Assembly: GCF_017565425.1 (NCBI RefSeq)
Contig: NZ_JAGEMK010000003.1
Coordinates: forward strand, 62,001 to 126,000
Source: Actinotalea soli
Lineage (GTDB): Bacteria > Actinomycetota > Actinomycetes > Actinomycetales > Cellulomonadaceae
Direction: 5' to 3'
Length of the DNA: 64,000 nt
Within the stretch, counting starts at the first letter, position 1. Every line of letters starts with the position of its first letter. Shown here in pieces: positions 2,606-43,941 of this stretch. Under the pieces are notes generated by a model. That model did not search any database, was not told where the DNA came from, and saw only the letters and a program-made list of their open reading frames with translations. Both the position numbers and the translations under genes were made by a program.

Positions 2606-2633
2606 GGCGTCGTGTCAGAGACAGGACGACGCC
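2606..2633 (-). promoter_or_regulatory. Hairpin across the stop codon of sulfur leader peptide 1
   Basis: The inverted repeat GGCGTCGT (2606-2613) / ACGACGCC (2626-2633) encloses 12 nt. That loop holds the stop codon (2615-2617) and last codons of the leader ORF, including its last Cys codon. A ribosome stalled at the terminal Cys codon would cover this hairpin, as expected for an attenuation switch. The remaining leader to 2252 is about 350 nt of GC-rich untranslated sequence in which I could not choose a unique terminator/antiterminator pair. Confidence 0.5.
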
Positions 2634-2707
2634 GAGGCTCCCGCGGGCATGCACATTCGCGCCGCGACGATGTCGCTGGGCACGAGAAGCAGCCGGGCGG
2701 GAGTCAT
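2615..2707 (-). CDS. Cys/Met-containing leader peptide of the ssuE-like operon
   Basis: A 30-codon ORF on the minus strand. Its middle reads AARMCMPAGA and it ends SSCL, so it carries two Cys and two Met codons flanking each other. It lies about 360 nt upstream of the FMN reductase gene. There is no clear ribosome site; instead a CACAGT hexamer sits exactly 6 nt before the ATG, suggesting a leaderless transcript. The MCMP-AGA stretch resembles MCGCMPRAGA in the leader at 43795-43875, and the SCL end resembles SCRCL in the leader at 41779-41844. Known relatives in mechanism are the polycysteine leaderless ORFs of mycobacteria that act as cysteine-responsive attenuators. Function here is inferred. 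Confidence 0.6.
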   Translation of the reverse strand: MTPARLLLVPSDIVAARMCMPAGASASSCL

Positions 2708-2755
2708 GTCACGACTGTGACAGGCCATCCATGACGTGGGAACCCTCGTCCCACG
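2707..2755 (-). promoter_or_regulatory. Promoter/operator region of the first sulfur operon
   Basis: Two inverted repeats lie side by side: TGTCAC-GACT-GTGACA at 2707-2722 and CGTGGGA-accctcg-TCCCACG at 2735-2755. Read on the minus strand, a CACAGT -10-like hexamer lies inside the first repeat and a TTCCCA -35-like hexamer lies 17 nt further upstream in the second. The palindromes therefore cover the presumed promoter, as an operator would. No regulator gene for this operon is next to it. Confidence 0.45.
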
Positions 2756-2812
2756 ATCCGGGACGTTGGTCCTGGTTCGTGGTCGGCGGGGGCGGTCCCC
2801 TCGCCGGAGACC

Positions 2813-2856
2813 GGGGCGGCCGTCGGGCCTCGACCTCGAGGACCCACGGCCGCCCC
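2813..2856 (-). terminator. Terminator of the pyrimidine-catabolic operon
   Basis: An 11-bp perfect stem, GGGGCGGCCGT / ACGGCCGCCCC, with a 22-nt loop, begins 15 nt beyond the stop codon of the last operon gene at 2871. It separates the long leftward operon from the sulfur leader promoter. Confidence 0.6.
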
Positions 2857-2870
2857 GAACCTCGCGCCGC

Positions 2871-3614
2871 TCAGGCCCGCCGGGCGATCTGGGTGTTCGA
2901 GACCTGTGCCCGCGGCCGGACCACCAGGGTGTCGATGTTGACGTGGTGCGGGCGCGTCAGCGCGAAGGCGATGACGTCGGCGACGTCCTCGGCCAGGAGC
3001 GGCTCGTACCCCTCGTACACCTTCGCCGCGCGCTCGGCGTCCCCGCCGAACCGCACGAGGGAGAACTCCTCGGTCGCGACGTTGCCCGGGGCGATGTCGA
3101 TGACCCGCACCGGCTGCCCGATCAGCTCCAGGCGCAGCGTGGTGGTGAGCATGCGCTCGGCGTGCTTGGCACCGGTGTAGCCCGCCCCGCCCTCGTACGG
3201 GGCGATCCCCGCGGTCGAGGTCACCACGAGCACGTCGCCCCGCCCGCTGGCGACGAGCTGGGGCAGCAGGGCCTGGGTCACGCGCAAGGTCCCCAGGACG
3301 TTGACCTCGTACATCCGCCGCCACGTCTCGGGGTCCGCCTCGGCCACCGGCTCGAGACCGATCGCGCCCCCCGCGTTGTTCACCAGCGAGGTCACGCCCC
3401 CCGTCTGCTCGAGGTGCGCCGCGAGGCGGGCGACGTCCTCCGCGACCGTGATGTCAGCCGCGAAGGGCTCCGCCCCTGTCTCCGAGGCGAGCTCGGCGAG
3501 GCGCTCGGCGCGTCGGGCGACGGCCACGACGGCCCACCCCTCGGCGCGCAACCTCCTGACGGTGGCGGCGCCGATGCCCGAGGAGGCGCCGGTGACGACG
3601 GCACGTGGGTTCAT
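2871..3614 (-). CDS. YdfG-like SDR, probable malonate-semialdehyde/3-hydroxypropionate reductase
   Basis: A 247-residue classical short-chain dehydrogenase. TGASSGIG (residues 8-15) binds the nucleotide, NNAG is at 79-82, and the catalytic residues are Ser133, Tyr146 and Lys150 (YTGAK). The C-terminal half (TEEFSLVRFGGD, HVNIDTLVVRP) follows E. coli YdfG closely; YdfG reduces malonic semialdehyde to 3-hydroxypropionate. It overlaps the upstream aminotransferase by 4 bp (ATGA), so the two are translationally coupled. In context it would dispose of the malonate semialdehyde made from beta-alanine, as YdfG does in the Rut pathway. The assignment within the SDR family rests on motif resemblance plus context. 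Confidence 0.8.
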   Translation of the reverse strand: MNPRAVVTGASSGIGAATVRRLRAEGWAVVAVARRAERLAELASETGAEPFAADITVAEDVARLAAHLEQTGGVTSLVNNAGGAIGLEPVAEADPETWRRMYEVNVLGTLRVTQALLPQLVASGRGDVLVVTSTAGIAPYEGGAGYTGAKHAERMLTTTLRLELIGQPVRVIDIAPGNVATEEFSLVRFGGDAERAAKVYEGYEPLLAEDVADVIAFALTRPHHVNIDTLVVRPRAQVSNTQIARRA

Positions 3615-4936
3615 GGGTGGAGCTCCTTCTCGATCTGGGTCAGGGCAGCGTCGTACACCTCGAGGGCCTCGTGCACCTCGGCGTCGGTCACGACGCAGGG
3701 GGGCACCACGTGGACGCGGTTCTCGGCGACGAAGGGCAGCAGCCCCCGCCGGGTGAGGTCCGTCGTGAGGGCGCCGACCGCGGGCGCGGCGAGCGGTTCG
3801 CGCGTGGTGCGGTCCGCGACGAGCTCGAGGGCCCAGAAGACCCCCACCCCCCGGACCTCACCGACGACGAGATGCTTCTCGGCGAGGGCCGCGAGCCCCG
3901 GACCGAGCACCTGGGCGCCGATGCGGGCCGCGTTCTCGACGATCCCCTCCTCGGCCATGGCGTCCAGGGTCGCGACGATCGAGGCCATCGCGAGCGGGTG
4001 ACCCGAGTAGGTCAGCCCCCCGGGGAACACGCGGTCCTCGAAGGTGGCGGCGATCTCGTCGGAGAGGAGCACGCCGCCCACCGGGACGTAGCCCGAGTTG
4101 ACCCCCTTGGCGAAGGTGATGAGATCGGGGCGCACGTCGTGGTGCTCGAGGGCGAACCACGACCCCGTGCGACCGAACCCGGCCATCACCTCGTCCAGGA
4201 CGAGGGTGATCCCGTAGCGCTCGGTCAGCGCGCGCACCCCGGCCAGGTACCCGGGTGGCGGGACGAGCACCCCGCCGGTGCCGACCACCGTCTCGAGCAG
4301 GACTGCGGCGATCGAGCCCGGGCCCTCGGCCTCGATGACCCGCTGGAGGTGGTGCAGGGCGCGCTCGGTCTCCTGCTCGGGGGTCGTGGCCCAGAAGTCG
4401 CTGCGGTAGAGGTACGGCCCGAAGAAGTGCACGTGGCCCCGGGCGTACTCGTTGGGCACCCGGCGCCAGTCCCCGGTCGCGACCACCGCGGCGCCCGTGT
4501 TGCCGTGGTAAGAGCGGTAGGCCGAGAGCACCTTGTCCCGCCCGGTGTGCAACCGCGCCATCCGGATCGCGTTCTCGTTGGCGTCGGCCCCGCCGTTGGT
4601 GAAGAACACCTTGTGGAAGCCCTCAGGGGCCCGCTCGGAGATCCGGCGCGCCGCCTCGCCACGCACCCGCACCGCGTGGGCCGGGGCGATCGTCGCGAGC
4701 TCGCCGGCCTGGGCCTGGATGGCTGCGACGACCCGCGGGTGCTGGTGCCCGACGTTGAGGTTGACCAGCTGGCTCGAGAAGTCCAGGTACCGGCGTCCCC
4801 CGGCGTCCCACACCTCCGTCCCGCGCCCGTGGTCCACCACCATCGGGGCCAGGTCCCCCTGGGCCGACCACGAGTGGAAGACGTGCGTGCGGTCGAGCCG
4901 CCGGGCCGTCTCGCCGGCGTCGTCGATGTCGTTCAT
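3611..4936 (-). CDS. Class III (omega) aminotransferase, probable beta-alanine transaminase
   Basis: A 441-residue PLP-dependent class III aminotransferase. The HSWSAQGDLAPMVVDHGRGTEVWD start, the FFTNGGADANENAIRMAR loop, the LVLDEVMAGFGRTG segment and the Schiff-base Lys277 (FAKGVNSGYVP) are all visible, and the length is normal. It lies downstream of genes that would release beta-alanine from dihydropyrimidines, so conversion of beta-alanine (or 3-aminoisobutyrate) to the semialdehyde is the likely reaction. A 124-bp gap separates it from the upstream binding-protein gene. No strong ribosome site precedes its ATG. Other omega-amine donors are possible. Confidence 0.8.
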   Translation of the reverse strand: MNDIDDAGETARRLDRTHVFHSWSAQGDLAPMVVDHGRGTEVWDAGGRRYLDFSSQLVNLNVGHQHPRVVAAIQAQAGELATIAPAHAVRVRGEAARRISERAPEGFHKVFFTNGGADANENAIRMARLHTGRDKVLSAYRSYHGNTGAAVVATGDWRRVPNEYARGHVHFFGPYLYRSDFWATTPEQETERALHHLQRVIEAEGPGSIAAVLLETVVGTGGVLVPPPGYLAGVRALTERYGITLVLDEVMAGFGRTGSWFALEHHDVRPDLITFAKGVNSGYVPVGGVLLSDEIAATFEDRVFPGGLTYSGHPLAMASIVATLDAMAEEGIVENAARIGAQVLGPGLAALAEKHLVVGEVRGVGVFWALELVADRTTREPLAAPAVGALTTDLTRRGLLPFVAENRVHVVPPCVVTDAEVHEALEVYDAALTQIEKELHP

Positions 4937-43569: not shown

Positions 43570-43628
43570 GCCTTGCGCCCGGCGCCGGCGTCCCACCGCC
43601 ACCGGCGCACCTGGACCGACCGGTCCTC

Positions 43629-43654
43629 GAGCCCGCCTCCTCGGAGGCGGGCTC
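43629..43654 (+). terminator. Terminator of cysK-cysE
   Basis: A 12-bp perfect stem, GAGCCCGCCTCC / GGAGGCGGGCTC, with a 2-nt apparent loop lies 60 nt beyond the cysE stop. Confidence 0.7.
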
Positions 43655-43692
43655 TCGTCGTCTCGGCATGTGAGCAGTTCGTTGTCCACCCC

Positions 43693-43744
43693 TTGCCACA
43701 CGGCCGCCGACACGGTTACCGTCACAGCGCAGTCTTAAGGACTG
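43693..43744 (+). promoter_or_regulatory. Promoter and palindromic operator of the second sulfur operon
   Basis: TTGCCA (43693-43698) and TACCGT (43717-43722) are spaced by 18 nt. The predicted start point falls at the edge of a palindrome, CAGTC-TTAAG-GACTG (43730-43744), a plausible repressor site. Transcription would run about 65 nt to the leader peptide ATG at 43795. Confidence 0.6.
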
Positions 43745-43794
43745 AACGAACCGTCTCACTGGGTGGGACCTACGAGGGAAGGAGGCCTGCGCCG

Positions 43795-43875
43795 ATGCTC
43801 TGTCACCGTGACATGACGATGGCGCGGCCGATGCTGCCCTCGATGTGTGGCTGCATGCCACGCGCTGGCGCCTGA
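43795..43875 (+). CDS. Cys/Met-rich leader peptide of the sulfonate-import/metY operon
   Basis: A 26-codon ORF with an AAGGAGG site. It contains three Cys and six Met codons after the start, including the cluster PSMCGCMPRAGA. It lies 174 nt upstream of the ABC ATPase gene. A longer in-frame ORF begins upstream at 43573 but would overlap the cysK-cysE terminator and the promoter, so the short form is preferred. Its MCGCMP core resembles MCMP in the leader at 2615-2707. Both Cys and Met codons suggest that it senses supply of either sulfur amino acid; this is inferred. Confidence 0.65.
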   Translation: MLCHRDMTMARPMLPSMCGCMPRAGA

Positions 43876-43941
43876 CGCGCTGCCCGCTCCCCCGAGCCCG
43901 AGCAGACGTCCGGTCCGACGACGGACCTAGGTGGCCAGCGC
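43862..43941 (+). promoter_or_regulatory. Attenuator-like inverted repeat overlapping the end of the Cys/Met leader
   Basis: GCGCTGGC (43862-43869) covers the last codons of the leader and pairs with GCCAGCGC (43934-43941), 108 nt before the ATPase start. The stop codon lies between the arms. The same GCGCTGG/CCAGCGC stem follows the cysK leader. Confidence 0.55.

Follow-up and report, generated by a model that had tools for sequence, protein, structure and literature searches.

Short cysteine-containing open reading frames before the sulfur operons of Actinotalea soli as probable leader peptides of ribosome-mediated attenuators

A stretch of 64,000 nucleotides (nt) from Actinotalea soli (hereafter the window; parent assembly 3.63 Mb) carries three short open reading frames (ORFs) with cysteine codons, located upstream of the ssuE-monooxygenase pair, of cysK-cysE and of an organosulfur uptake operon that runs from an ssuB-like gene to a metY-type gene. 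The ORFs had been proposed from this DNA alone in an original prediction, and their positions, translations and placement before sulfur operons were confirmed. Judged by sequence comparison, they are probably cis-acting leader peptides of ribosome-mediated attenuators that sense Cys-tRNA and, in the Met-rich leaders, Met-tRNA. A short Cys ORF is kept between species upstream of all three operons wherever the gene is readable, and the leaders of cysK and ssuB, two of the three, are accompanied by a conserved RNA stem with compensatory changes. As had been anticipated, the Cys codons are conserved in orthologous leaders, which are present in 19 of 19 genomes for cysK, 15 of 15 for ssuB and 12 of 13 for ssuE.

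Regarding cysK, matches were obtained in 57 of 59 genomes and the upstream region was read in 50; the cysK of one relative (G005) is 97.7% identical to that of the window. A short ORF with Cys in its tail is present in all 19 genomes of the genus and in all 18 other genomes of the family, ending 119-284 nt upstream of the gene. Under a strict rule, with at least two Cys among the last six codons and within 450 nt of cysK, 35 of these 37 genomes pass, L010 and L017 failing, compared to a mean of 1.3 in 30 dinucleotide shuffles. In 13 genomes of other families, one passes, compared to 0.3 in shuffles; a second cysK leader outside the family, in G047, was found with an RNA model (E 1.9e-6). This shuffle control concerns cysK, while the ssuE, ssuB and metY leaders rest on alignment. 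The cysK peptides vary in length, from about 20 to 45 codons, and in their letters, the Cys tail being constant and the last Cys codon being TGT in all 19 leaders of the genus.

An inverted repeat had been predicted at the stop codon of each leader, which holds for cysK and ssuB, where it is conserved, and does not hold for ssuE, where the repeat seen in the window has two mismatches in the closest relative (L056) and is not conserved. For the cysK stem, 21 leader loci out of 38 were aligned, the choice depending on whether a stem was placeable; those set aside include the near-duplicate L006, loci with longer loops, those with the variant arm GCGTCC and the stem-less L021 and L022. In these 21 loci, TGTC and GAGC always stand four letters apart. 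In 20 of them the final letter of the stop codon is the first of the stem, and in L017 the ORF runs through the stem. RNAalifold gives exactly the same nine pairs, 97.9% of the cells are paired, compared to 25-50% in slid controls, three pairs are changed on both sides, and on four of five measures the stem scores above nearly all shuffles. Moreover, when the pattern TGTCNNTAGAGCGCTGGN{18,48}CCAGCGCTC, in which a TGT codon is followed by the stop and then by the stem, was scanned over genome contigs, 70 stretches were found, titled Cellulomonas, Actinotalea, Demequina or Cellulosimicrobium, or metagenome-assembled genomes (Micrococcales, Actinomycetales, Demequinaceae and, once, Nanopelagicales). 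In 67 of them cysK starts 40-232 nt downstream, the remaining three (L224, L265 and L267) ending too soon, and all 70 have, besides the one Cys codon that the pattern forces, one to six further Cys codons within the eight codons preceding it.

The ssuB leader was found in all 15 orthologs of the genus (L078-L092), L089 and L091 having a single Cys. In its 5' arm 97.3% of the cells are paired; in the count made with controls, 91.6% of cells pair, compared to 27-53% in slid controls. RNAalifold on 14 rows (L092 omitted) returns 10 pairs, with U-A replaced by C-G in three rows and the reverse change in a single row, in addition to an inner hairpin. For both cysK and ssuB the arms were recovered unprompted, and double changes exceed those of shuffles and slid controls. 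A small hairpin around the Cys-Met codons of ssuB, with 86.6% of its cells paired and two pairs changed on both sides (four rows being misaligned there), lies outside the RNAalifold consensus.

A waiting ribosome covers the RNA ahead of its codon. The first base of the last Cys codon lies 8 nt before the 5' arm in cysK and 10 nt before it in ssuB, where a Met codon lies at 7 nt, so that a ribosome waiting on any of these codons would cover the arm. The part of PMC13236596 that deals with this geometry gives about 26 nt as masked by the ribosome.

The codon content of the leaders tracks the pathway of the downstream operon. The leaders of the ssuB-metY operon are rich in both Cys and Met (66 of 381 residues are internal Met), whereas the cysK leaders have almost no Met (1 of 503); the ssuE leaders have 23 of 342 and the metY-metX leaders 27 of 164, the latter being forced by how these leaders were found. 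The expectation that Met codons accompany operons with a metY-type gene, and that organosulfur uptake operons are among those with leaders, is supported. Taking as codon reference 36 window ORFs chosen by codon GC content, Cys makes up 0.49% of the residues and two of the 84 Cys codons are TGT, compared to five of seven Cys codons in the three window leaders (Fisher p 9e-6). Similarly, CGA stands before ATG-TGY in 12 of 12 ssuE and 27 of 27 metY leaders, even though the metY search accepted every CGN codon and CGA accounts for 61 of 1331 Arg codons in the window ORFs. TGT and CGA are presumably slowly decoded codons, and their retention could be explained by slow decoding or by RNA pairing.

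The ssuE leader is present in 12 of 13 orthologs of the genus, the thirteenth (L061) being cut by a contig end with 193 nt of upstream sequence. AARMC is invariant in all 12, and the Cys tail is kept in 10, L063 and L065 lacking it. The -10-like element TGnCANNGT ends 6 nt upstream of the ATG in most of these orthologs, so the mRNA is probably leaderless. The proposed likeness to leaderless mycobacterial ORFs therefore survives for ssuE and is lost for both plus-strand leaders, which have Shine-Dalgarno (SD) sequences. Before these two, the predicted promoter pattern TTGCCR-N18-TANCGT was found again: its two matches on both strands of the window lie directly upstream of the plus-strand leaders, the pattern having been drawn up post hoc. 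A further repeat, GGGAC-N4..9-TCCC, accompanies 8 of 12 ssuE leaders of the genus versus 0 of 61 leaders of the other three groups. The spacer between leader and gene measures 363 nt and is C-rich, and the stretch at the stop codon folds no better than shuffles (z 0.25). In 10 more distant ssuE-like loci this leader was not seen, one of them (L068) having a leader of the NF042934 type.

Outside the window, an ORF for MTCRMCR ends 185 nt before metY (PRK07812 and TIGR01326 above cut-off), which is followed by metX. Such an Arg-Met-Cys leader, mostly of seven residues, occurs in 27 of 30 metY loci of relatives, L277 being cut, L280 a variant and L296 without one; TANNNT lies 6-7 nt upstream of the ATG in all 27, and this leader also appears to fit a leaderless start. 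CGAATGTGC in the leader pairs with GCACGTTCG behind the stop, and the element of the window's genome folds with a z of -3.87. Four CGAATGTGC sites are found in that genome: in the ssuE leader, in the metY leader, in the MGQNREHNAPRDVAGTRMCMPGLTSVCCH leader, which is related to that of ssuE and was read in the window's genome, and in L344 (position 2048, plus strand), where no ORF with a clear start is seen.

The three leaders do not form the single family originally proposed. At least two architectures are present, one with a Cys tail and a stem (cysK and ssuB, whose stems share GCGCTGG/CCAGCGC) and one with an Arg-Met-Cys core and apparently no 5' untranslated leader (ssuE, metY and the second monooxygenase), CGA-ATG-TGY being shared by ssuE, metY and part of ssuB. 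One regulatory RNA copied round the genome was not found, as model R1 (E < 1e-3, 115 candidates scored per genome) matches beside cysK only, in 20 of 39 genomes, most of which also supplied rows of the model.

Positions of the leaders, their RNA elements and the neighbouring genes (window positions, unless a locus or contig is named)
Feature	Position	Strand	Description
NtaA/DmoA-family FMN-dependent monooxygenase	246..1628	-	TIGR03860, 504.7 bits (cut-off 279.7)
SsuE-type NADPH-dependent FMN reductase	1682..2251	-	TIGR03567, 202.8 bits (cut-off 164.05)
ssuE leader ORF	2707-2615	-	30 codons, ATG at 2707; MTPARLLLVPSDIVAARMCMPAGASASSCL, stop; core AARMCM, tail SSCL
Extended -10-like element TGTCACAGT	2714..2722	-	6 nt upstream of the ATG; from window and relatives' sequence
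Operator-like repeat TGGGAC-N5-GTTCCCA	2737..2753	-	upstream of ssuE leader
tRNA gene	41631-41701		ends 142 nt upstream of cysK stem
Putative cysK leader promoter TTGCCG-N18-TAGCGT	41718..41747	+	pattern match; similar sequences in several relatives
cysK leader ORF	41779..41844	+	21 codons; MTLATSVLVRAVVGAPSCRCL, stop TAG; both Cys codons TGT; SD-like GGAAGGA upstream
cysK stem, 5' arm GAGCGCTGG	41844..41852	+	begins with G of the stop codon
cysK stem, 3' arm CCAGCGCTC	41894..41902	+	pairs with GAGCGCTGG, 9 bp
cysK, cysteine synthase A	42043..42978	+	TIGR01139, 444.6 bits (cut-off 350.95)
cysE-type serine acetyltransferase, hexapeptide-repeat protein	42985..43569	+	PF00132; name inferred from position beside cysK
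Putative ssuB leader promoter TTGCCA-N18-TACCGT	43693..43722	+	pattern match
Operator-like repeat GTCTC-N7-GGGAC	43753..43769	+	between promoter and SD
ssuB leader ORF	43795..43875	+	26 codons; MLCHRDMTMARPMLPSMCGCMPRAGA, stop; core MCGCMPRAGA; SD AAGGAGG upstream
Small hairpin GTGGC/GCCAC	43847..43861	+	around Cys-Met codons
ssuB stem, 5' arm GCGCTGGC	43862..43869	+	within Arg-Ala-Gly codons
Inner hairpin GGTCCG/CGGACC	43912..43927	+	RNAalifold
ssuB stem, 3' arm GCCAGCGC	43934..43941	+	pairs with GCGCTGGC at a distance of 64 nt in the window
Operon: ABC ATPase, SsuA-family binding protein, SsuC-like permease, acetate-CoA ligase, O-acetylhomoserine sulfhydrylase (metY type)	44050..50625	+	
metY leader MTCRMCR, ATGACCTGCCGAATGTGCCGCTGA	L196:5745-5768 = G000 contig C32:51744-51767	+	24-nt ORF
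ssuE-leader relative MGQNREHNAPRDVAGTRMCMPGLTSVCCH	L343, G000 contig C31 near 159332	-	ends 308 nt before a second TIGR03860 NtaA/DmoA-type monooxygenase

Taking together conservation, codon content, the stems with their compensatory changes, spacing and promoter-like sites, we infer that the leaders are translated and sense tRNA, with the following direction of control and mode of termination. The ribosome would begin the leader soon after RNA polymerase has transcribed it. When charged Cys-tRNA (and Met-tRNA for Met-rich leaders) is ample, the ribosome would reach the stop codon and leave, and the cysK or ssuB stem, at or just before the stop, would then form and lower the expression of the operon. 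The most likely output would be the end of transcription in the C-rich untranslated spacer, through a weak intrinsic terminator or Rho. With the tRNA in short supply, the ribosome would wait on the last Cys (or Met) codon with its front edge over the 5' arm, so that no stem forms and the operon is expressed. MTCRMCR could be a minimal form of this device, as its 24-nt ORF corresponds to about one ribosome footprint and lies mostly inside the 5' arm, and for ssuE, as a guess, Rho might act on the 363-nt spacer. Sensing by the ribosome is likely, and attenuation of transcription seems more likely than attenuation of translation. Five leader spacers have 44-51% C and 28-32% G, versus 39% C and 34% G in nine coding strands, a C-richness that suits Rho.

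Several observations weigh against this reading. In the ssuE leader, the synonymous-site comparison that had been proposed as a check favours the frame in the core alone (codons 15-22, synonymous differences pS 0.27 and nonsynonymous pN 0.08, the other two frames giving 0.21/0.10 and 0.06/0.17), whereas over codons 2-22 the two values are equal (0.21 each) and the frame is no better than the other two; in addition, no conserved stem was seen at ssuE in an 11-row alignment. The metY stem is 93.3% paired, with covariation no higher than in shuffles and hence uninformative, and the genome shows no excess of MGNATGTGY sites overall (98, versus 132 for the reversed control). In cysK, the further pair types of the stem are not above shuffles (417 of 500), the AGCGCTGG stem is missing at the Cys leaders of the family genomes L021 and L022, and a variant arm is seen in several others. 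Furthermore, TTT occurs within 12 nt after the stem in 0 of 70 named cysK loci, where the tail has 53% C and 7% T, and a terminator scan finds none, indicating that a textbook intrinsic terminator is absent; in one family member (L046) the stem is followed by TTTTTCTT, with the U-run.

The lack of a U-run in all 70 named loci would also agree with attenuation of translation, in which the first gene has its ribosome-binding site locked in the leader RNA until a ribosome stalls and releases it, as is proposed for Cys genes of Mycobacterium smegmatis, among the closest experimentally studied relatives, in the portion of PMC13236596 concerned with them. However, when the whole leader is folded in a thermodynamic model, the predicted mean unpaired probability of the SD region barely shifts when the footprint of a stalled ribosome is imposed, by +0.03 in cysK (19 loci), -0.04 in ssuB (15), +0.03 in metY (27) and -0.04 in ssuE (12), and this alternative is considered unlikely. 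It is far less probable that the stems are simple terminators for transcripts arriving from upstream, such as that of the tRNA gene close by, with the Cys ORFs as by-products, as the arm has a TGT codon 8 nt ahead of it in 21 of 21 aligned genomes (selected for a placeable stem), even in L017, where the ORF passes through the arm, further Cys codons are present in all 70 named loci, and the cysK leader has a promoter-like site and an SD of its own. Equally improbable are functional small Cys proteins acting in trans through metal or thiol binding: the ORFs are indeed conserved and Cys-rich, but in cysK leaders of such varied length only the Cys tail is kept, most metY-metX peptides have just seven residues, the conserved Arg-Ala-Gly of ssuB coincides with the RNA arm, and the rare CGA is retained before ATG-TGY in every ssuE and metY leader.

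Besides the leader itself, a second layer of control may exist at the ssuB operon. GTCTC-N3..9-GAGAC, with at most one mismatch, is kept upstream of 12 of 15 ssuB leaders of the genus (exact in seven), compared to a mean of 0.28 in mononucleotide shuffles, and begins 38-56 nt upstream of the start codon, which suggests a likely repressor site above the attenuator. The same repeat is seen in 10 of 27 metY upstream regions.

Some related short ORFs were seen elsewhere. An ORF for MCCRMCR (once MCCRMCS) occurs in 13 genomes that belong to another family of the order (L329-L341). In three translated loci (L329, L335 and L336) it is followed not by metY but by the gene of a protein about 240 residues long, so the motif alone is no sign of metY; the protein ends in a winged-helix domain (PF00486, one scanned) and is possibly a sulfur regulator. 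A general AARMCM leader across the class was rejected: 67 of 296 genomes match the pattern and, among 30 loci read, that of the window is the sole clear leader of this type, with short frames in L305 and L319. No clear leader was found in the stretches scanned at the metQ operon and other Cys/Met lyase genes of the genome, a scan restricted to ORFs of 8-60 codons that missed MTCRMCR. Separately, a NIR_SIR search of the genus genomes (G000-G015) gave no match in 4 of 16 and, in most of the others, one long frame of about 870-970 residues, which we read as NirB-like, G006 alone having a frame of 671 residues that is hit twice, like sulfite reductase.

If the attenuator reading is true, Cellulomonas, Actinotalea, Demequina and their kin use ORFs of 7 to about 45 codons to control cysteine synthesis, the synthesis of methionine precursors and organosulfur scavenging, and the stems are defined enough for base-by-base tests. 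More tentatively, and with a possibility well short of even, the leaders might form a lineage-wide sulfur regulon of two-amino-acid ribosome sensors, in which cysK reads Cys alone and the metY-type and organosulfur operons read Cys and Met, with rare and presumably slow TGT and CGA codons and, in MTCRMCR, a one-footprint ORF whose codons are themselves the RNA arm.

As for described families, the kind of Cys leader is known in actinobacteria, NCBIfam holding at least three such families, and the present peptides and RNAs are new forms outside the NCBIfam and Rfam families. The three window leaders gave no match to NF042934, NF042936 and NF042933 at E up to 1, nor did four leaders of relatives at E up to 10. 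Rfam at the gathering score found two tRNAs only in the whole window, and no match at E up to 1 in 41700-44100, the ssuE region being searched at gathering only. No description of these leaders in Cellulomonas or kin was found among the matches listed in the open-licence literature.

Mycobacterial polycysteine leader ORFs were reportedly tested by Canestrari et al. in 2020, a study cited in PMC13236596 and PMC9094748, with Cys-responsive attenuation as the outcome. These ORFs (Ms4527A, NF042936; Ms5788A, NF042933) are similar to the present ones in being short, Cys-rich and placed before sulfur operons of an actinobacterium. The present ones differ in the absence of a profile match, in two SD starts, in the 5' arm at the stop codon, in the Met codons and in the organosulfur uptake genes. 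The leaderless start of the mycobacterial ORFs fits the ssuE and metY leaders, unlike cysK and ssuB, where an SD is present and the promoter-like site lies further upstream. The NF042934 type (cis_reg_atten, a putative leader peptide with a HVDLCR-like motif in the members seen) precedes ssuE- and ssuB-like genes in other families of the order, scoring 33.4 bits in L068, over the cut-off of 27, and 24.9 bits in L105, under it. Thus, homologous genes carry unrelated leaders in different families, suggesting that such devices arise or are replaced repeatedly. The predicted extension to organosulfur genes is seen here, but it is not special to this lineage, given the NF042934 type at homologous genes in two other families and a Cys/Met leader before metNIQ in Streptomyces lividans, as presented in the sections of PMC8079986 devoted to it.

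That leader, metL (MSTTSDRTPATEATTTPGARCMCRRMCAF), is read as methionine-dependent by its authors; it has a Cys-Met-rich tail with an Arg-Met-Cys group, is leaderless and lacks a clear terminator in the description given (PMC8079986). The likeness is one of features, at a different operon, not one of demonstrated orthology. An earlier study (Seliverstov 2005, PMC1262725) described Cys leader peptides upstream of cys operons in Mycobacterium and P. acnes and upstream of cbs in B. longum. As far as the actinobacterial account of that work goes, these are similar in their runs of Cys codons near the stop, and Rho was proposed because no terminator hairpin was found. That set has no conserved hairpin, whereas a hairpin supported by compensatory changes accompanies the cysK and ssuB leaders, and actinobacterial Cys leaders thereby gain an RNA structure not found in the 2005 comparative set. 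Finally, in the ilvB1 attenuator of M. tuberculosis, as outlined in PMC13236596, the position of the ribosome on the leader ORF also decides how the RNA folds; ilvB1 has a terminator and an antiterminator, while no conserved antiterminator was found for cysK, where a stalled ribosome occluding the stem would be enough without one.

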